Origin: an uncultured Alphaproteobacteria bacterium
GTDB lineage: Bacteria > Pseudomonadota > Alphaproteobacteria > Bin95
Direction: 5' to 3'
DNA: 42,646 nucleotides
NCBI GenBank assembly: GCA_937891825.1
Contig: CALAHN010000012.1
Coordinates: 1 to 42,646 of the forward strand
The notes beneath the pieces are model-generated. The model did no database searches. It worked only from the letters and a program-made list of their open reading frames with translations, and was not told the DNA's origin. The translations under genes were made by a program, and so were the position numbers. Below, piece by piece: positions 33,887 through 42,646 of this stretch (position 1 is the stretch's first letter; each line of letters begins with the position of its first letter).

Positions 33887-33997
33887 TAGGGTTAGCGTTA
33901 TTGCAGCGCCAGTCAGCAAGTGGAAGTCCCGAGCGGGATTCCTCGAAGAGCCAGAAGGTCCGTGGCGGCGCGACACCGGGATTGGAAGGAAACCCCA

Positions 33998-35041
33998 ATG
34001 CTAAAGCGATTTACGACCGTCGCCGCCTTCGTGGCGGCTTTAGGAACATTTGGCGCGCTCGCCGCGGCCAATGCCGCCGACTACCCGAGCGTGACCTTCA
34101 AGCACGCCACCGGCTTTCCCAAAGCGCTCTACATGGAACAGCCTGCCGAGTTCTTCGCGGATCGTCTGGCCGAACGGTCCGGCGGCAAGATGAAAGTGCA
34201 GCTCTTCTATTCCGGCTCCCTGGGAAAATCGAACGAAATCCTGGACCTGGTGTCCAGCGGCGCCGTCGACATGGGCTCCCTGGTGCAAGGCTATTTCACC
34301 TCGGCCCTGCCGTTCGCCGCGATGACCAACAGCTTGCCCATGACCTTCTTCGATCCGGCCCAGGCGATGTATGCCGCGATCGAGGCGGAAAAGACCAACA
34401 CGTCCCAGATCGACGAATTCCGGCGCAACAAGATCAAGCCGCTCGTCTATCGCTACCTGCCGAACTACAAGCTGATCTGCACCAAGCCGGTCCGCACCAT
34501 GGCGGACCTGCGGCAGCTCAAGATCCGCACCTTCGGCAATTTCATGCCGAAGATGTTCGCGGCGATCGACGTGACCCCGGTCAATGTCCTGCCGACCGAC
34601 AACTACGAAGCCCTGAAGCGCGGCTCGATGGATTGCTCCTATCTGACGAACGCCAACTTCATCGCCTACAAGCTGCATGAAGTCGCGCCCTATATCATCG
34701 ACGTGAAGTTCGGCGGCATTAACGCCTATTTCCTCGCGATGAGCTTGGACAAGTTCGAAAGCCTGTCGCCGGACGCCCAGAAGCTTCTGGTCGAAGTCGG
34801 CCAGGAAGCGACGAAGTTCGCCGCCGATCAGACCGAGCGGATCGAAGCCGAGGCGCTTGCGACGATGCTGACCCAGGGCGCCAGCCTCATCAAGTTCGAG
34901 GAGCAGGACAAGCTCGTGGCGGCGGTTCCGAACATGGTCGACATCTGGATCGAGACCATGGACGGCCAGGGCCTCGGGGCCGAGGCCCGGGTCTATGCCA
35001 AGCAGGTCATGGACTACTACAACGCCAACAAGTCCGACTAG
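33998..35041 (+). CDS. dctP: TRAP transporter substrate-binding protein (DctP family)
   Basis: The 347-aa periplasmic solute receptor has a Sec signal peptide (1-27, ending ANA). The DctP fold is seen in AEFFADRLAERSGGKMKVQLFYSGSLG (split: FFADRLAERSGGKMKV, LFYSGSLG), IKIRTF-like LKIRTFGNFMP and the VNVLPTDNYEALKRGSMDC segment, which usually carries the carboxylate-binding Arg region. It captures an organic acid for the DctQM permease. The substrate is not readable. The ATG at 33998 has AAGGA about 8 nt upstream; a longer in-frame start at 33920 is upstream of the signal peptide. It is followed by a 161-nt gap with strong hairpins, then dctQ. Confidence 0.95.
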   Translation: MLKRFTTVAAFVAALGTFGALAAANAADYPSVTFKHATGFPKALYMEQPAEFFADRLAERSGGKMKVQLFYSGSLGKSNEILDLVSSGAVDMGSLVQGYFTSALPFAAMTNSLPMTFFDPAQAMYAAIEAEKTNTSQIDEFRRNKIKPLVYRYLPNYKLICTKPVRTMADLRQLKIRTFGNFMPKMFAAIDVTPVNVLPTDNYEALKRGSMDCSYLTNANFIAYKLHEVAPYIIDVKFGGINAYFLAMSLDKFESLSPDAQKLLVEVGQEATKFAADQTERIEAEALATMLTQGASLIKFEEQDKLVAAVPNMVDIWIETMDGQGLGAEARVYAKQVMDYYNANKSD

Positions 35042-35053
35042 AGAGCATGGACT

Positions 35054-35125
35054 GCGCGTCCACTTAGACGCGCCATGTTCCAGACTTTGAGCATGGGCCG
35101 CGCGCTTTCGGCTGCGCGGCCCATG
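35054..35125 (+). promoter_or_regulatory. Two hairpins between dctP and dctQ
   Basis: First: GCGCGTC-CACTTA-GACGCGC (35054-35073). Second: a perfect 12-bp stem CATGGGCCGCGC / GCGCGGCCCATG with a 10-nt loop (35092-35125). Neither is followed by a T-run. Such structures after a binding-protein gene commonly stabilise its upstream message or attenuate readthrough, so that receptor exceeds permease. That role here is inference. Confidence 0.6.
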
Positions 35126-35202
35126 ACCCCCGCGCGGGCGATCGCCGGCCAGGCTAAGCTCGCTTCCGCCGGCCGCGGCCAGCGTTTCAGGAAGGATTTG
35201 CC

Positions 35203-35730
35203 ATGCGGCGACTGGCGTTATTTTTCGATGGTGCGATCCAGAAGCTTTCAGGCTTGTCGTTATGCGTCGCGGCGGCGTTCATCGGGTTGCTGGCCTTGCT
35301 TGGCGCGGCGGATATTTTCGGCACGTCGATCCTGGGCGCGCCCGTCGCAAGCGCGCTTGAGCTGTCCGAGGCGGCCCTGGCGATCATCGTGTTCATGGGC
35401 CTCGCGCAGGCGGAGCGGCGGCGGGCGCATATCACGGTCGATATCTTCTCCGGCCGGTTTCGCGGCTGGGCCGCCAAGGCTTCGATGGGGGCGGCCTTGA
35501 TTTCGGCCATGCTGTTCTTCGGATTTCTGGCATGGCGCGGTTATATCGCCGCCGAGCAGAGCGTCCTGATCGACGAACGGTCGGCCGGGCAAAGCGCCTT
35601 CCCGATCTGGCCGGGCAAGATCCTGCTGGCCCTGGGCGCGTTCGCAGCGATGCTGGAAGCGCTCCGGCAGTTCGTGCGCCTGTGCGCCGGCTGTTCCGAT
35701 CCTTCGGAAAGCGCTGGGGGTCTGTCATGA
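35203..35730 (+). CDS. dctQ: TRAP transporter small permease (DctQ family)
   Basis: The 175-aa membrane protein has four spans (about 13-35, 45-65, 85-110, 138-160), the DctQ topology. The conserved E-x-x-E-x-x-L segment is seen as ELSEAALAIIVFMGLAQAERRRAHITVD. The ATG at 35203 has AGGAAGGA 6 nt upstream. Its stop overlaps the dctM start in ATGA (35727-35730), so the two permease subunits are translationally coupled. Works with DctM and the dctP receptor in Na+-driven uptake of organic anions. Confidence 0.93.
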   Translation: MRRLALFFDGAIQKLSGLSLCVAAAFIGLLALLGAADIFGTSILGAPVASALELSEAALAIIVFMGLAQAERRRAHITVDIFSGRFRGWAAKASMGAALISAMLFFGFLAWRGYIAAEQSVLIDERSAGQSAFPIWPGKILLALGAFAAMLEALRQFVRLCAGCSDPSESAGGLS

Positions 35731-37037
35731 CGGAGGCGCTCTATACCGGGCTGATCGCGATCGCGCTCCTGCTCTGCATCGCGGGCCTCGGGGTGCCGAT
35801 CGCCTTTGCGATCGGGCTGGTCGGCGCCGGCGGCATGTATCTGACGGTCGGCGTCACCTACACGATCATCACCTTCCAGAGCCTGCCCTACGCGACCGCC
35901 AGCGAATATGCCTTCGCGGTCATCCCGATGTTCGTGCTGATGGGGGCCATCGCCGCCGCGTCGGGGATCGTCACGGAATTGTACGGCGCCGTGAACCGGT
36001 GGCTCGAAGGGGTGCGCGGCGGCTTGTTCATGGCGACCACGGTCGCCTCCGCCGGTTTCGCCGCGATTTCCGGCTCGACCGTGGTCAATGCCGCGATGTT
36101 CACCCGTATCGCCTTGCCGGAAATGATGCGGCTTGGCTACCACAAGGGCGTCAGCGCCGGCTGCATCGCCGCGGCCGGCACCTTCGCGGCGCTGATTCCG
36201 CCTTCCCTGACTTTCGTGATCTTTGGCATTCTGACCGAGCAGAGCATTGGCGCCCTGTTCATGGCCGGCATTCTGCCGGGCTTGCTGACGGCGGCTTTCT
36301 ACATCGCCTTCGTGCCGCTGATGGTGCGGCTCAGGCCGGGCTGGGCGCCGCCGACGATCGACACCTCGACCTTCAAGGAGAAGTTTCTGGGGCTGAAGGG
36401 CCTTTGGCCGATGCTGGCGCTGGTGTTTATCGTGCTGGGCGGCATCTACACCGGCATCACGCCGCCGACGGCGGCGGGCGCGCTTGGCGCGGTCGGCGCC
36501 TTGTTCATTGCGATCGCCAGGCGGCGGATCACGACCTCAGGCGTCTGGGACTCCTTCAAGCAGACTGCCGAACTGACATCGGTCCTCTTCATCCTGATCA
36601 TTTCCGGCCTGTTGTTCTCCCGCTTTCTCGTGATCTCCGGCTTCGTCACGGATCTGACCGATCTGGTGATCAACAGCGGGCTGTCGGCGGAAGGCTTCCT
36701 GGTCGTCATGGTGCTGATGTATCTGGTGCTGGGCATGTTCATCGATCCCTTGTCGATGCTGGTCATGACCGTGCCGTTCATCTTCCCGGTCGTCGTCGGC
36801 TTTGGCATGGACCCGATCTGGTTCGGGGTCATTCTGACCAAGATGATCGAGATCGCGGTCATCACGCCGCCGGTCGGCCTGAACCTGTTCGCGGTGGTGT
36901 CGGCATCGGAGGGGCGGGTCTCGATCGGCGACATGTATTTCGGGATTCTGCCCTTCGTCGCGATCGAACTGATCGTGCTGCTGATCCTGATCCTGTTCCC
37001 GATCATCTCCCTCTACCTGCCGCAAACCATGATGTAG
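35727..37037 (+). CDS. dctM: TRAP transporter large permease (DctM family)
   Basis: The 436-aa polytopic protein is of the DctM family, with 12 or more hydrophobic spans. Conserved stretches include AVIPMFVLMGAIAAASGIV, AGFAAISGSTVVNAAMFTRIALPEM, SAGCIAAAGTFAALIPPS, and FIDPLSMLVMTVPFIFPVV followed by ITPPVGLNLFAV near the C-terminus. This is the ion-coupled translocating subunit in the inner membrane. The start codon overlaps the dctQ stop (4 nt). An FKBP gene follows 83 nt later, probably under separate control. Substrate of the transporter is not evident. Confidence 0.96.
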   Translation: MTEALYTGLIAIALLLCIAGLGVPIAFAIGLVGAGGMYLTVGVTYTIITFQSLPYATASEYAFAVIPMFVLMGAIAAASGIVTELYGAVNRWLEGVRGGLFMATTVASAGFAAISGSTVVNAAMFTRIALPEMMRLGYHKGVSAGCIAAAGTFAALIPPSLTFVIFGILTEQSIGALFMAGILPGLLTAAFYIAFVPLMVRLRPGWAPPTIDTSTFKEKFLGLKGLWPMLALVFIVLGGIYTGITPPTAAGALGAVGALFIAIARRRITTSGVWDSFKQTAELTSVLFILIISGLLFSRFLVISGFVTDLTDLVINSGLSAEGFLVVMVLMYLVLGMFIDPLSMLVMTVPFIFPVVVGFGMDPIWFGVILTKMIEIAVITPPVGLNLFAVVSASEGRVSIGDMYFGILPFVAIELIVLLILILFPIISLYLPQTMM

Positions 37038-37120: not shown

Positions 37121-37570
37121 ATGCGCATCGGAAAATTCGTTGCAAGTCTCTTTTTGATTGGCGGACTAGGCAGTTCGCTGCCGGCGCAAGCGGAGAAGAA
37201 TGTGGATTATCTAGCGGAAAACGCAAAGAAAGACGGCGTCACGGTTACGGCGAGCGGCCTGCAATATCGCGTCGTCAAGGAAGGCACGGGCGCCTCGCCG
37301 GCGGCCCGGGACACCGTCGAAGTGCATTACAAGGGCACGCTGATCGACGGGAAGCAGTTCGACAGTTCCTACGATCGCGGCCAGACCATCGAATTTCCGC
37401 TGAACGGCGTGATCCCCGGCTGGACCGAAGGCGTGCAGTTGATGCAGGAAGGCGCCGTCTATGAATTCGTGATCCCGTCGGACCTGGCCTATGGGCCGCG
37501 CGGCATTCCGGGCGTGATCCCCGGCGGCGCGACGTTGATCTTCGAAGTCAACCTCGTATCGATCAAATAG
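37121..37570 (+). CDS. Periplasmic FKBP-type peptidyl-prolyl isomerase
   Basis: The 149-aa protein has a signal peptide (1-24, hydrophobic FVASLFLIGGLGSSL, cleavage after AQA) and one FKBP domain: VEVHYKGTLIDGKQFDSSYDRG, FPLNGVIPGWTEGVQLMQEG, and IPSDLAYGPRGIPGVIPGGATLIFEVNLV. Those segments carry the usual FKBP active-site residues (Tyr, Phe, Asp, Val-Ile, Trp, Tyr). It catalyses prolyl cis-trans isomerisation of exported proteins. The ATG at 37121 begins the signal peptide and has AAGGGAG upstream. The last 8 nt overlap the convergent thioredoxin-reductase-like gene. Confidence 0.94.
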   Translation: MRIGKFVASLFLIGGLGSSLPAQAEKNVDYLAENAKKDGVTVTASGLQYRVVKEGTGASPAARDTVEVHYKGTLIDGKQFDSSYDRGQTIEFPLNGVIPGWTEGVQLMQEGAVYEFVIPSDLAYGPRGIPGVIPGGATLIFEVNLVSIK

Positions 37571-38480
37571 CGGCGCGCCCGCTGACGCCGGCCGCCGCTC
37601 GCCGAGCATCGGCCAGGGCGTCCGAAATCTGGCCGCCATAGCCGCTGCGCGCGGCGCCGATCGCGTAGAGGCCCGCCGTCGTCGTCTGCATCGTCCCGTC
37701 GACGATCAGGGCGGCGGCGGCGTCACGCCTGGCTTCGCTTGGGGCGAGGGCGGTTTCCGGCGTCAGCCCGATGAAGACGAAGAGCGCGGATGTCGCCGCT
37801 TCCGTCTCGGCGCCGCTGGCTGCGTCCTGAAGCCTGATGCCGTCGAGGCCGCTCTGGCCGAGCGCCGCCATGACCTTGACCCCATGCCGGACCTTGAGGT
37901 TCGCCCTGGATGCGGCCGCGTCCAGGAACGCTTGCCGGGCGCGAGGCGTCTCGCCCCGTTGCAGCATGGTGACCGAGGCGCACAAATCCGCCAGATGCAG
38001 GGCTTCCTGATAGGCGGCGTCGCCGCCGCCGACGACGTGCACGTCGCGCCCGCGATAGAGCCCGCCGTCGCAGAACGCGCATTGGGAGACGCCGCGCCCC
38101 ATCAGCGCGTCCTCGCCCGGCACGCCTAGCCGCTTGAGCTTCGCGCCCGTCGCCAGGATGACCGACGGCGCCGCGATTTCCAGGTCCGGCAGCCGCCAGA
38201 GCGCGCCCGCCCGCTCCAGCGCCGTGACGGTCCCCATCTGATAGTCGGCCCCGGCTTCGAGCGCCCGTTCAAGCAACTGGTTGACGAGATCGGCGCCGGA
38301 CTGGCCCGCATACGCGGCCTGGTCAGCGATTTCGCCGACATTCATCATCAGGCCGCCCATATTGCCGTCGTCGACCAGCGCCGTCGCGAGGCCAAGCGCG
38401 GCCAGTTCGGCCGCCGCCGCCATGCCGGCGACGCCGGACCCGATGACGATGGCTTGATGGGTCGGATCGCGCAGGATCAT
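37563..38480 (-). CDS. Thioredoxin reductase-like FAD/NAD(P)-dependent disulfide oxidoreductase
   Basis: The 305-aa protein has the TrxB layout: FAD motif GSGVAGMAAAAELAALG (14-30), ATGAKLKRLGVPGED, the redox pair CAFC in GVSQCAFCDGG (about 132-142), and NAD(P) motif VVGGGDAAYQEALHLA (about 149-164). The usual C-terminal GD of FAD binding reads GA here (YAIGAARSGYGGQ). It would pass electrons from NAD(P)H to a disulfide or selenenylsulfide. The ATG at 38480 overlaps the stop of the preceding gene in ATGA. It is the last gene of the selenoprotein operon, so a partner role for the UGSC protein or the two 346-aa proteins is likely, though inferred. Confidence 0.85.
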   Translation of the reverse strand: MILRDPTHQAIVIGSGVAGMAAAAELAALGLATALVDDGNMGGLMMNVGEIADQAAYAGQSGADLVNQLLERALEAGADYQMGTVTALERAGALWRLPDLEIAAPSVILATGAKLKRLGVPGEDALMGRGVSQCAFCDGGLYRGRDVHVVGGGDAAYQEALHLADLCASVTMLQRGETPRARQAFLDAAASRANLKVRHGVKVMAALGQSGLDGIRLQDAASGAETEAATSALFVFIGLTPETALAPSEARRDAAAALIVDGTMQTTTAGLYAIGAARSGYGGQISDALADARRAAAGVSGRAAI

Positions 38481-39517
38481 GGGGCGTCGCTCCGCTCGAG
38501 GTCCAGGATAGCGCGGGTCTGGGTGACGCTGCCGCCCGCCCAGAGCGGCAGGCAGGTCATCTTGATGCCGGGGCCGCCGGTCACGATGGCCAGGATATCC
38601 CCTGGCGCTTCAGCAAGCGGGCCGGCGCGCTCGAACCGGGCGACGCCGGGCATGTCGATGCTCGCCGCGTCCATCAGGTAGGCTTGCACGCGGGCGAGAT
38701 CCCAGCCCGCCCGAACGACGGCCGCGGCCAGCTCCGGCGGAAACAGGAACGCCTGTTCGCCGGGCGGGCGGACCCGGCCCGAGCCCGCGACCGCGCGGGC
38801 GGCGAGCAAGGCGGCCGCGACCGGCCTCAGGATGGCCTCGGGCGTGTCGCGCTCGTCGAGCGGCAGGACTTCCATGGTGCCCGACACGCCAAGCACGGTG
38901 ACGGCGCTGACGCCATCCGGAATTCCGCGCCGGTCGGCGAGGCTGGGGAACGGGCCGTCGGGCGCTTCCGCCAAGCAGAAGCCGTATTTCCCCGGCTGGC
39001 CCATGGTCGCCATGTCGCCGATTTCTTCCTTCGCGCCGCCGATATTGCGCATCACGAGGCTGAGCGCCCGCCCAAGCGTCGCGTTGGCGCGATTGCCCGG
39101 CCCCAGGCAATTGATCCCGGCGTTCATGCCAAGCGCCTGGACCGCCGGGCCATGGACGACGAGCGCGATCGCGGGCGTTCCCGTCGTCGTCAAGAGGCCG
39201 AGCAGGTTGAAGTCGGGCGCGGTGCAGGCGTTCGCCGCGGTCAGCACGATCGGGAGAGCGCCGGGCGCGCACCCGGCCAGGACGCAATTATAGGCGACGG
39301 CCCGGGGCGTCAGGTCGCCCATCATCGGGAAGAGCTGGCCGTAGGATCGGTCAGGCGCCGCGACGCCCGCCAGCATGGCGGCGAGCCGGCGCGCGGTCGG
39401 CGGCGTCTGCGGCAGGCCGTCCGCCAGTCCGGCCCTGGTCAGCGCCGCCTGAACCGCTTCGAAATCCGCGTCCTCCGGGAAGACCGGGGCCGGATCGTCG
39501 TCAAGCCCGGCGCTCAA
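38477..39517 (-). CDS. UGSC-associated conserved protein B (paralog of the upstream gene), function unknown
   Basis: The 346-aa protein is clearly paralogous to the product of 39514-40554. GLADGLPQTPPT (30-41) matches GWSDGFPLVMPT, and AGINCLGPGNRANATLGRALSL matches the corresponding stretch over 22 residues (133-154). Three Cys positions are kept: Cys83 (LAGC), Cys137 (INC) and Cys181 (GFC). The C-terminal half is more divergent, with ILAIVTGGPGIK near 308. There is no signal peptide. The start is a TTG (39517-39515) overlapping the stop of the preceding gene as TTGA, so translation is probably coupled. Shared cysteines suggest a redox or metal role; that is inference. Confidence 0.75.
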   Translation of the reverse strand: MSAGLDDDPAPVFPEDADFEAVQAALTRAGLADGLPQTPPTARRLAAMLAGVAAPDRSYGQLFPMMGDLTPRAVAYNCVLAGCAPGALPIVLTAANACTAPDFNLLGLLTTTGTPAIALVVHGPAVQALGMNAGINCLGPGNRANATLGRALSLVMRNIGGAKEEIGDMATMGQPGKYGFCLAEAPDGPFPSLADRRGIPDGVSAVTVLGVSGTMEVLPLDERDTPEAILRPVAAALLAARAVAGSGRVRPPGEQAFLFPPELAAAVVRAGWDLARVQAYLMDAASIDMPGVARFERAGPLAEAPGDILAIVTGGPGIKMTCLPLWAGGSVTQTRAILDLERSDAP

Positions 39518-40554
39518 AGGGCGGGCAGCCTGACGGAGCAGGCCTCGGTAAAGCCGAAGGTCGGGATGAAGGCGGAATGCTTGCCCGGCCCGCCCGCGAC
39601 GCAGATCTGGATGTCGTCCGGCGTGCGCGTCAGGTAGTACCGGCCGTTGACAACGCTATTCTCACGCTCTTCGTAGCTCTTCTGATTCTCTTTTGAAACG
39701 CGGGAAACCTCGACCGCTGTGTCATGGAACAGCTTTTCCTGGATGGTTTCGATGGTCCAGCCATCCCGGCGGAGCGTCTCCGCATGCTCCGGTCCGAACG
39801 CCAGCATGTAAGGCGCGGTTCCGTAAATGAGGTTGGATCCAGGCTGGGAAATCGTGCCGACGACGGTCGCGAGGATGCCGGCGCCGGACGTGCTGCCATG
39901 ATCATTGATGTTGTGCGGCGGCTCGGCGGGCAGCGCGGTCACAACCGTGTCGCTCGCTTCGAAACCCCGACGGACATGGTAGGGCGCCCAGGGACTGGCT
40001 TCCTCGTTCTCGCCGAAGCAGAAGGCGAACTTCGCGGGCGAGCCTTGCGTGGAGCGGTCCATCTCGCCGGGTTTCGCGCCGCCGACATTCAACAGCGTCA
40101 ATTGCAGGGCGCGGCCGATGGTGGCGTTCGCCCGCCAGCCCTGGCCGAAGCAGTTGCTGCCGCAGTTCAGGCCGAGCGTCTGGCGAAGCGGCCCGTTCAC
40201 CATGATCATCGGCGCGCAGGGATGCGTCGTCGCCAGCGTGCCATGCAGATTGTATTCCGGCTGCAGGACCGCGCGGACGGCGGCGACCACGACCGGGAAA
40301 TATTCCGGCTTGCACCCGGCCATCACCGCATTCGCGGCGATCGCGGGCAGGGTCGGCGTCACGCGGCGGGGCGACATCGGCGGAAACGGCTCGTTGTCGC
40401 CGCGGCACAGTTCGACGAAGCGCGCGACCTTGGCCTCGGTCGGCATGACAAGCGGGAAGCCGTCGCTCCAGCCCTGTTCGGCGGCGTATTCGTTGAACGC
40501 ATCGGCGTCCATGTCGCCGAGGTCGAGGACCTCCTCGGTCGTGATATCCGTCAT
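39514..40554 (-). CDS. UGSC-associated conserved protein A, function unknown
   Basis: The 346-aa cytoplasmic protein belongs to a conserved family I recall next to UGSC proteins, without a known function. Landmarks: GWSDGFPLVMPTEAKV (29-44), NAVMAGCKPEYFPVVVAAV (75-93), YNLHGTLATTHPCAPMIMVNG, NCGSNCFGQGWRANATIGRA (130-149), then FCFGENEEASPW and HNINDHGSTSGAGIL. There are eight Cys (50, 81, 113, 131, 135, 179, 318, 339); 81, 135 and 179 are shared with the downstream paralog. The ATG at 40554 lies 78 nt after the selenoprotein stop, beyond a strong hairpin, and lacks a clear Shine-Dalgarno. It overlaps the next gene by 3 nt. Confidence 0.8.
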   Translation of the reverse strand: MTDITTEEVLDLGDMDADAFNEYAAEQGWSDGFPLVMPTEAKVARFVELCRGDNEPFPPMSPRRVTPTLPAIAANAVMAGCKPEYFPVVVAAVRAVLQPEYNLHGTLATTHPCAPMIMVNGPLRQTLGLNCGSNCFGQGWRANATIGRALQLTLLNVGGAKPGEMDRSTQGSPAKFAFCFGENEEASPWAPYHVRRGFEASDTVVTALPAEPPHNINDHGSTSGAGILATVVGTISQPGSNLIYGTAPYMLAFGPEHAETLRRDGWTIETIQEKLFHDTAVEVSRVSKENQKSYEERENSVVNGRYYLTRTPDDIQICVAGGPGKHSAFIPTFGFTEACSVRLPAL

Positions 40555-40632: not shown

Positions 40633-41160
40633 TCAAACCGAGATCGCGAGCTTCAGCTCCATGAAGGCGGTTTCGATCCGCTCCTGCAGCTCCGCCGCGT
40701 TCAAGCCCCCGACCGGGTGCTTGACAATCAGGAGCCTCGGGTTGGCTTTCCGGGCCTTCGCCTGCGCGCGGACCAGCGGCAGGAAGGTTTCGGTAATCAC
40801 GATGTAGGTTTCGACGCCGAGCGCTTCTAAGGTCGTACTGTCATGGAAACTCCACGAGGAGCACGACCCTCAATCAGCTAAAGCGACGATGGCGCCCCGG
40901 TAGTTCTTGGCGACCCGCTCGATCAATTCCGGCGGCGCCGGCTGGGCGGCGCTGTCCTTGAACATGTAGTCGATCGTGTCGACCGGCCGGAACTGGCCCA
41001 TCAGGGTCCGCATGCCCTGCAGCAGTTCCATGGCGTTCGGCTTCGAGTTCGAGATGATCGCGATTGGATCTTTCAGCCAGTCAGTCGCGCCGAGGTCGAC
41101 GCGGTTCTCGCTCTGGCCGGCGTCGGGCTGCAGCCCGAACGACGGATTGACGATGCGCAT
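40633..41160 (-). CDS. UGSC-family selenoprotein (in-frame TGA read as selenocysteine)
   Basis: A gene finder would stop at the TGA at 40872-40870 (codon 97). The same frame continues for 78 codons to a second TGA at 40635-40633, giving 175 aa. Across the TGA the protein reads AIVALAD-Sec-GSCSSWSFHDST, the D-U-G-S-C motif that names the UGSC family. Family features continue on both sides: MRIVNP at the start, ISNSKPNAMELLQGM, and after Sec LEALGVETYIVIT, FLPLVRAQAKA and LLIVKHPVGGL. A SECIS-like hairpin follows the TGA directly. Sec97 and Cys100 could form a selenenylsulfide. GGAGAAGGA lies just before the ATG at 41160. First gene of a four-gene operon with proteins A and B and a disulfide reductase. 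Function unknown; the family includes Cys-containing forms. Confidence 0.92.
40831..40868 (-). promoter_or_regulatory. Bacterial SECIS element downstream of the Sec codon
   Basis: Counting the U of UGA as base 1, bases 5-13 pair with 34-42 (9 bp, one G-U). Bases 16-22 pair with 26-32 (7 bp, one G-U), capped by a GUU loop, with a small internal loop (CC/C) between. A short hairpin with G and U in the apical loop, starting about 11-16 nt after UGA, is what SelB recognises. The element lies inside the coding sequence, as in bacteria. Folded by eye. Confidence 0.8.
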
Positions 41161-41655
41161 AGTCCTTCTCCCTATCTCAGGCGGCGACGCCCCGTCAGCC
41201 GAACCGCCGACCGCCATCCCCGAAACGCTACACCACCCAGCCCCAGTCGTCCAAGCGTCGCGGTCGAGGCTGCGCGGGGCAGGCGGGCGGCCGCACCCCA
41301 TGAGTTGCAACCTGCCAAATCCCCGCCGCCGGCGTTTGATTCCGACGCAAAGTATTGCTGCAATCGGCTGCGCCGCGATTGCTGGCGGAGGTTGGAAAGG
41401 GGCGCGCCCGTGGCGGCGACCGAAACGCAAAAGATCGCGATCAACGAGGGGATCGGCGGCCGGCGCCTGGAAAATGCGACCGCTTCTCCGCAGGGTGGTA
41501 TAAGATGAACAGCGCAGTCCTTCTGCTCAATGAAGATAAGTACCGCCGAAACCAAGCCAATCTGGACTCAGTTTCGGCGGTTATCCCCCCTCGGACCATC
41601 TTTCCGGTGCCTTGGCCTGAAGTTTTTATCAAGAGAAAGGGTGGAGTGTTACAGA
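41161..41655. other. Intergenic stretch of 495 nt upstream of the selenoprotein operon
   Basis: No convincing gene. Short frames here (for example plus-strand 41511-41663) lack ribosome sites and known domains. It should hold the promoter of the selenoprotein operon, but no clear -35/-10 pair is seen. From about 41500 rightwards base composition becomes visibly AT-richer, running into the RTX gene. An 11-bp inverted repeat lies at 41542-41581. Confidence 0.6.
41542..41581. repeat. Inverted repeat ACCGCCGAAAC / GTTTCGGCGGT
   Basis: A perfect 11-bp stem with an 18-nt loop lies 74 nt after the RTX gene stop. On the minus strand it is followed by ACTTATCTTC, a weak U-rich tail. It may terminate RTX transcription or be a small mobile remnant; the loop is long for a terminator. 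Confidence 0.4.
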
Positions 41656-42646
41656 TCAACTAAGTATAAAGTCATCTGCAGAGAACAGATTCTCGGACAC
41701 GCCGAGAATCTGAAGGCTATTAATGCCGCCAAGGTTGATCACCGCAGAGCCGCTTATATCCGTTGTAACCGCTTGGACTGCAGAGATATTGAGGAATCCG
41801 TGTCCTCTTAGGTCGATTTGGTCAGCGGTCGTGTCGAAATCTGTGATGACGTCGACGCCATTATTCAGGCCGATAATGAAAGTATCGCCGCCCTGCTGCC
41901 CGGTGAGGACATCGTTGCCGGCTCCGCCGATAATGACATCCGCGCCGGAGTTGCCAAAGATCCGATCATTCCCATCGCCGCCATTCAACAGATCATTGCC
42001 GACCATTCCAATCAGTTGGTCATTGCCGTCTCCGCCGAGGATTGTGTCAGGCGAGTTGATGCGATTAGCGCCAGTAATGCGGTTCGCCTCCGCATTGCCC
42101 GTCAACGCCAGGCCGACAGTCGCAAACTTGCCGATCATGAACTCAACACCCAGCGGATTGATGAAGTCGACAAAGACGTTGATCCGATCAAGCGCGCCTT
42201 CGCCGGGCTGCTCGACAACTGTGTCGCCAACGTTATCGACGGTGTAGAGGTCATTGCCTGCCCCGCCGGACATGGCGTCCGCGCCGTCGCCGCCGTTCAG
42301 CCGGTCATTGCCGTCGCCGCCTTCAAGGATATCGCTGCCTTCGTTGCCGGCCAGCGAATGCGCGCCAGCGCCGCCCAGCAGAACGTCGTCGCCATTCTGA
42401 CCCAGCAGAGTGTCGTTTCCGTCCCTGCCTTCCAGCCGGTCATCGCCGCCGCCGCCGCGCAGAACGTTGGCGCCCGCATTGCCGATCAGGATATTTCTGT
42501 CCACCGTGCCGAGAATATCGATGTTCCGGCTGCCGGACAGAACGATGTTCTCGAAATTGGCAGGCAAGGCGTCAAGATCGCCACGGGCTTCGTCGATCCC
42601 GGCATTTGGCGCTTCAAACACCTCATCGCCTGCTTCCAGGATGTAA
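41656..42646 (-). CDS. RTX (hemolysin-type Ca2+-binding repeat) protein, N-terminus outside the window
   Basis: The open frame runs off the right edge, so only the last 330 or so residues are seen. They hold two blocks of RTX nonapeptides: ILIGNAGANVLRGGGGDDRLEG onward (GGxGxDxLx units such as GGDGNDRLN and GGAGNDLYT), a non-repeat spacer of about 50 residues, and then LGGDGNDQL to LTGQQGGDTFIIG. RTX units bind Ca2+ and form a beta-roll outside the cell. The end (INSLQILGVSENLFSADDFILS, in parts) fits an uncleaved type I secretion signal. There is no enzyme domain in the visible part, so its activity cannot be named. Codon use is AT-richer than elsewhere in the window, suggesting recent acquisition. 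No type I secretion genes are in the window. Confidence 0.9.
   Translation of the reverse strand, partial: YILEAGDEVFEAPNAGIDEARGDLDALPANFENIVLSGSRNIDILGTVDRNILIGNAGANVLRGGGGDDRLEGRDGNDTLLGQNGDDVLLGGAGAHSLAGNEGSDILEGGDGNDRLNGGDGADAMSGGAGNDLYTVDNVGDTVVEQPGEGALDRINVFVDFINPLGVEFMIGKFATVGLALTGNAEANRITGANRINSPDTILGGDGNDQLIGMVGNDLLNGGDGNDRIFGNSGADVIIGGAGNDVLTGQQGGDTFIIGLNNGVDVITDFDTTADQIDLRGHGFLNISAVQAVTTDISGSAVINLGGINSLQILGVSENLFSADDFILS
41686..41712 (-). other. 11-bp hairpin inside the 3' end of the RTX gene
   Basis: CAGATTCTCGG / CCGAGAATCTG with a 5-nt loop lies about 28 nt before the RTX stop, followed on the minus strand by TTCTCTG. The coding constraint there (LGVSEN) could make it chance; a 3'-end mRNA structure is the alternative. 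Confidence 0.4.

Follow-up and report, generated by a model that had tools for sequence, protein, structure and literature searches.

The analysed stretch of 42,646 nucleotides (hereafter the window), which comes from an uncultured alphaproteobacterium, carries on its minus strand a gene of the UGSC selenoprotein family followed by two paralogous genes, named here N1 and N2, and by a gene for a thioredoxin-reductase-like flavoprotein. The features of this locus are the following.

40633..41160, minus strand: UGSC-family selenoprotein gene, 175 aa including the predicted Sec97 (readthrough translation, with the PF24696 match extending across the TGA)
41164..41172, minus strand: likely ribosome-binding site, GGGAGAAGG / GGGAGAAGGACT located 5' of the ATG, read directly from the letters
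40870..40872, minus strand: in-frame TGA, predicted selenocysteine codon, U97 of the U-G-S-C motif (same codon in 110 homologues)
40829..40870, minus strand: predicted bacterial SECIS hairpin, with upper stem 40857-40851/40847-40841, GUU loop 40850-40848 and lower stem reaching 40870/40829
39514..40554, minus strand: N1, 346 aa, next gene after UGSC, with the motifs W-S-D-G-F-P...MAGC...NCFGQGWRANATIGRA
38477..39517, minus strand: N2, paralogue of N1 by blastp, its start overlapping the N1 stop
37563..38480, minus strand: flavoprotein similar to thioredoxin reductase, bearing a CAFC redox motif, its start overlapping the N2 stop (ATGA)

The UGSC frame opens at the ATG at 41160, runs for 96 codons to the TGA at 40872-40870 and continues for 78 more codons to the TGA stop at 40635-40633. 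Translation of 41160-40633 yields a 175-aa product, MRIVNPSF...ALAD-U-GSCSSWSFHD...AISV, which confirms the readthrough to 40633 that had been proposed in a preliminary description of this DNA. Close relatives of the protein share its initial residue, and we favour the ATG at 41160 over the upstream TTG at which a 186-aa ORF in the mechanical ORF list begins. The 96-aa fragment that the preliminary description expected from a standard gene caller is obtained with the favoured ATG under the standard reading, whereas the mechanical list reports 186 aa instead.

The 175-aa product matches the Pfam model PF24696 (UGSC) from residue 27 to residue 169, spanning the TGA (E-value 2.9e-30; 106.1 bits against a gathering score of 25 bits), and thus the family name given earlier holds. 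The NCBIfam model NF041046 matches residues 33-170 (E-value 1.6e-29), where the score of 102.8 bits falls short of the equivalog cut-off of 125 bits. Other accepted-looking UGSC members, such as those at loci L010, L025, and L071, score 116-120 bits, likewise under this cut-off, so the shortfall marks a divergent subfamily; the window protein is filed under PF24696 and not as an NF041046 equivalog. Its motif D96-U97-G98-S99-C100 corresponds to the form D-[U/C]-G-S-C, whose D, U/C, G, and C columns are invariant across 33 UGSC members. The subfamily of the window protein has U-G-S-C-S-S-W-S-F-H-D where the other UGSC proteins have U-G-S-C-S-S-C-S-L-H-D, and the identity between them is 20-26%; the window protein and the family described by PF24696 and NF041046 nevertheless have the Sec codon position, the D-U-G-S-C motif and the placement of the SECIS element in common. 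The family has been catalogued since the GOS survey of 2008 (PMC2398784), and both models are curated. By sequence comparison, the window gene is a new representative of this already known family, belonging to a UxxCxxW subfamily.

A TGA occupies exactly this codon in 80 of 80 close relatives (57-75% identity), which were collected by a scan of genome contigs, and in 30 of 30 more distant UGSC members from a search of related genomes. In all 110 tblastn alignments covering the site, the protein is conserved before and after the TGA, so its position is not due to chance, and a pseudogene or a sequencing error is ruled out. The preliminary description, which held that the gene is neither truncated nor a pseudogene, is upheld here: every homologue continues past the TGA with conserved sequence. 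It had also suggested that the organism decodes UGA as selenocysteine. We found the corresponding machinery in the same genome, whose completeness is 99.97%: SelA (512.2 bits), SelB (423.8 bits), SelD (276.3 bits), and tRNA-Sec (71.5 bits; anticodon tca, i.e. UCA, by ARAGORN) all exceed their cut-offs, including the selB and tRNA-Sec genes that the description had named as decisive. The selA and selB genes adjoin each other on one contig, and an NADH-dehydrogenase-like domain precedes SelD in a fusion (Ndh-SelD). The genome encodes four further UGSC genes (C112, C104, C72, and C4; loci L153-L156), each with one in-frame TGA.

The UGSC family was identified in 5 of 398 sampled genomes of the phylum, the window genome included. 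Among the other four, the two genomes with SelB over the cut-off have TGA at the site, whereas the two without it, both complete, have cysteine (ALSD-C-GSC in G274 and H-C-GSC in G406). In this small sample of four genomes, the split between TGA and Cys tracks SelB, the kind of Sec/Cys exchange that a selenoprotein should show. Judged from these comparisons of sequences, the in-frame TGA is decoded as selenocysteine and the gene encodes a selenoprotein. Translation of the TGA as another amino acid (Trp, Cys, or readthrough by a recoded tRNA) is permitted by the reading frame alone, and no positive support for it was found; the ordinary Sec machinery of the genome, the Cys at this site in the two genomes with no SelB above the cut-off, and the ordinary genes that terminate in TGA, including N1 and N2, make it very improbable. 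The weakest explanation, under which the TGA would be a genuine stop or arise from mutation, leaving a pseudogene or a 96-aa fragment with a relic downstream, agrees with the standard table-11 reading, which ends at 40872-40870, and can be dismissed given the 80/80 and 30/30 homologues with both flanks conserved, the complete Sec machinery, the hairpin that follows the TGA, and the single TGA in each of the four other UGSC genes. As a separate observation, the Cys-type UGSC frame of G406 (C6, locus L191) contains a TGA farther downstream and is possibly a decaying gene; its N1 neighbour appears intact.

The 48 nt counted from the TGA fold into a structure of -24.8 kcal/mol (z-score -5.65), and none of 200 shuffled sequences was as stable. 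Its 7-bp upper stem closes a GUU loop that lies 19 nt after the TGA, in agreement with the published features of bacterial SECIS elements, namely a loop of 3-9 nt with G in the first two places, an upper stem of 4-16 bp, and a distance of 16-37 nt from the UGA (PMC13188914). Several codons in the upper stem (Ser TCG, Ser AGT, Phe TTC, and Asp GAC) each have their third base fixed in 80 of 80 close relatives, among which the third bases of nearby alanine, leucine, glycine, and threonine codons vary freely. In a set of 31 diverse members, pairing in the upper stem reaches 96.3%, versus 89.6% with shuffled partners; one base pair is changed on both sides in eight sequences (G-C/C-G), and the covariation rests on this single pair. 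The pair connects the third positions of codons 103 and 105, which read TGG (Trp) and TTC (Phe) in the window subfamily; most other members have TGC (Cys) at the first and a G-ending codon, mainly for Leu but in some cases for Met or Thr, at the second. Thus, the two residues differ jointly while the pair is preserved, and the RNA appears to couple them, which makes the predicted SECIS stem an example of an RNA element shaping a protein sequence (Trp/Phe versus Cys/Leu). Close relatives alone show little covariation because their protein sequence is fixed; the signal emerges only when distant subfamilies are added.

In the operon, UGSC and N1 are separated by 78 nt, and N1, N2, and the flavoprotein gene are joined by overlapping start and stop codons. 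N1 and N2 are 31% identical (blastp E-value 3e-39), and neither has a significant family match in Pfam or NCBIfam. For N1, there was also no match to the known GrdB partner families within Pfam and nothing significant in a sequence search against solved structures; a profile comparison found UGSC and N1 unrelated. An AlphaFold model of N1 (pLDDT 86) had its best Foldseek matches in class I fumarate hydratase (E-value 1.6e-4), a likeness that we did not use because the TM-score is 0.26 and the VIA Z-score 4-5. The flavoprotein matches TIGR01292 (thioredoxin-disulfide reductase; E-value 1.8e-59, 201 bits), below the equivalog cut-off of 343 bits, as well as Pyr_redox_2 (E-value 4e-30).

This arrangement is conserved. 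N1 directly follows UGSC in all 66 informative close loci and N2 comes next in 64 of them, while the thioredoxin-reductase-like gene is adjacent in 49 of 60 close loci (44 directly upstream, 5 downstream) and not adjacent in the other 11. N1-type genes also flank UGSC in the inspected loci of distant subfamilies, where UGSC identity falls to 20-26%, and the same is seen for three of the four UGSC paralogues of the window genome, the fourth lying at a contig end. Moreover, in one genome UGSC and N1 are fused into one chain that reads through the Sec codon, beside a thioredoxin-reductase-like gene (L192 in G070), and a similar fusion occurs in a second genome (L185 in G080); both are followed by a second N1-type gene. 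In other loci (L183, L184, L186, L187, L190, and L156), N1 begins with a thioredoxin domain, marked by CPTC and a VPT cis-proline segment, which matches solved thioredoxins in the PDB at an E-value of 4e-7; this thioredoxin-N1 architecture is without a name in Pfam or NCBIfam. The 2008 survey reports UGSC fused to a domain termed 'Unknown_1' (PMC2398784), and N1 may be this domain. The gene context of UGSC, comprising the partners, the fusions, and the thioredoxin-reductase-like gene, seems to be the new element. While the preliminary description had named the gene correctly, it missed this operon, the SECIS hairpin, and the likeness to the Sec domain of GrdB/PrdB considered below.

Around the operon, an RTX-type calcium-binding repeat protein is encoded upstream (window 41656-42621, minus strand), and the TRAP transporter genes DctP and DctM lie downstream on the opposite strand (33920-37037, plus strand). 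An amino-acid-type ABC transporter, recognised from its sequence by eye without a model search, is found near the operon of another locus (L091). These transporters fit the use of small organic molecules and prove nothing.

In the AlphaFold model (pLDDT 88.5, pTM 0.81), the UGSC protein adopts a five-strand alternating beta/alpha domain in which Sec97 is placed at the start of helix 3, behind strand 3. Its matches among solved structures are generic Rossmann-like proteins (ParF, FtsZ, CheY, and TIR); the highest match, with a Z-score of 11.3, is a designed protein, and no informative relative was found. The GOS paper proposed a thioredoxin-like fold for UGSC (PMC2398784), which is not supported by this model: no thioredoxin-fold entry is among the top solved-structure matches listed, an absence that does not amount to exclusion.

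The nearest functional systems are the selenoprotein subunits GrdB/GrdF/GrdH and PrdB of glycine, sarcosine, betaine, and D-proline reductases (PF07355, TIGR01917, NF040794, and TIGR04483). The window protein itself has no match to PF07355, UGSC being the only family listed up to an E-value of 10. Some of its relatives match GrdF and GrdB models at E-values of 5.7e-5 to 0.05, the best values for UGSC members being 5.7e-5 for GrdF, 1.5e-4 for GrdB, and 0.0036 for general selenoprotein B; these matches sit at profile positions of about 334-421, which is the C-terminal region of the three models. Profile alignment (hhalign) of UGSC with the GrdB/PrdB-like proteins of related genomes gave an E-value of 2.7e-4 at a probability of only 41%, with the Sec/Cys columns aligned; this probability depends on the set, being 6% with a narrow PrdB-like set and 41% with the broader one. 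None of 200 column shuffles scored as high (best 25.6 versus 34.2). The GrdB motif is UxxCxxC according to a review of 2026 (PMC13188914), and the same motif is found in most canonical UGSC members outside the window subfamily, whereas the window protein has UxxCxxW, with Trp in place of the third motif residue Cys. Both groups share the succession strand - UxxC(xxC) - helix - LExxGI - strand around the Sec residue, both have a partner subunit encoded within the same operon, and the UGSC operon resembles glycine reductase in its linkage to thioredoxin and thioredoxin reductase. UGSC differs from GrdB/PrdB in being a lone domain of about 145 aa; N1 lacks a detectable relation to the pyruvoyl-forming partners of the GrdE/PrdA type, and the UGSC hosts found here are marine and soil Alphaproteobacteria, whereas the Grd/Prd hosts are Stickland fermenters. 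Common ancestry of UGSC with the Sec domain of GrdB/PrdB is supported by these weak yet consistent sequence similarities but not proven.

The window genome also encodes at least three GrdB/PrdB-like genes (C44, C152, and C59; loci L132, L133, and L193) with the Sec motifs PV-U-PNC-TRAV (V-U-PNC-TRAV) or N-U-PVC-HQT. Like UGSC, of which marine and soil Alphaproteobacteria carry several copies per genome, they are present in multiple copies, have Sec within UxxC at the same structural place, and have Cys versions in other Alphaproteobacteria. Unlike UGSC, they match PF07355/TIGR01917 directly, and in an unsystematic look no N1 gene was seen beside them. The window alphaproteobacterium is thus rich in selenoproteins. 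Beside one of its UGSC paralogues (C104, minus strand; locus L154) lies an Ndh-SelD fusion gene; such fusions are a known architecture.

Our searches of the literature found no known function for UGSC, and the papers that name it alongside thioredoxin reductase are surveys or reviews. We propose, with a probability of roughly 0.6, that UGSC is the Sec-bearing catalytic subunit of a thioredoxin-dependent reductase that it forms with its operon partners and that resembles glycine and D-proline reductases. The complex, the electron path, and the attack on a carbon-heteroatom bond are inferred by analogy with these enzymes. The hairpin right behind the TGA would direct Sec insertion and yield the 175-aa selenoprotein. 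Electrons would flow from NAD(P)H via the thioredoxin-reductase-like flavoprotein to thioredoxin, presumably a separate protein here and fused to N1 in other subfamilies, and on to the Sec97-Cys100 selenenylsulfide, so that the flavoprotein and thioredoxin would return the Sec-Cys pair to its reduced state. The substrate, a small molecule that may sit at the UGSC/N1/N2 interface, would be bound by N1 and N2 and attacked by the UGSC selenolate in the manner of GrdB and PrdB. Glycine reductase is reduced by thioredoxin and attacks its substrate through the Sec subunit, whereas D-proline reductase uses NADH, not thioredoxin, as electron donor (PMC10298544); electron donors thus vary within this class of reductases. 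At somewhat less than even odds, UGSC proteins may be the catalytic subunits in a so far unrecognised branch within the glycine/D-proline reductase superfamily, which with N1/N2 and a dedicated thioredoxin chain would reductively cleave carbon-nitrogen or other carbon-heteroatom bonds.

The chief alternative, which we consider unlikely, is that UGSC is a general thiol-disulfide oxidoreductase of a thioredoxin- or peroxidase-like kind, with Sec97-Cys100 as its redox pair and no carbon-heteroatom chemistry. The UxxC motif, the neighbouring thioredoxin-reductase-like gene, and the thioredoxin-like fold suggested in the GOS paper (PMC2398784) are consistent with such a role; in the model, however, Sec sits where the helix behind strand 3 begins, within a five-strand alternating beta/alpha domain whose top solved-structure matches contain no thioredoxin-fold entry. 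Sister subfamilies already have a thioredoxin domain fused to N1, which would render UGSC redundant as a general redox protein, and the fact that UGSC is obligately linked to N1/N2 points to a specific substrate. Far less probable is a role of UGSC, N1, and N2 in selenium delivery or recycling instead of catabolic or detoxifying reduction, since the adjacency to the Ndh-SelD fusion gene that points in this direction concerns one of five paralogues (C104:19065-19571), and genomes with no SelB above the cut-off still retain Cys versions, which speaks against a function bound to selenium use.

In the ocean survey of 2008, UGSC ranked with the most abundant selenoprotein families (PMC2398784), and the review of 2026 still counts it among families of largely uncharacterised function (PMC13188914). 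The gene itself is of a known kind, and the value of the finding lies in its gene context: with the operon and fusion evidence, an abundant and long-unexplained selenoprotein family gains a testable proposal with named partners, and the same evidence suggests the proteins for co-expression and the cofactors to supply.
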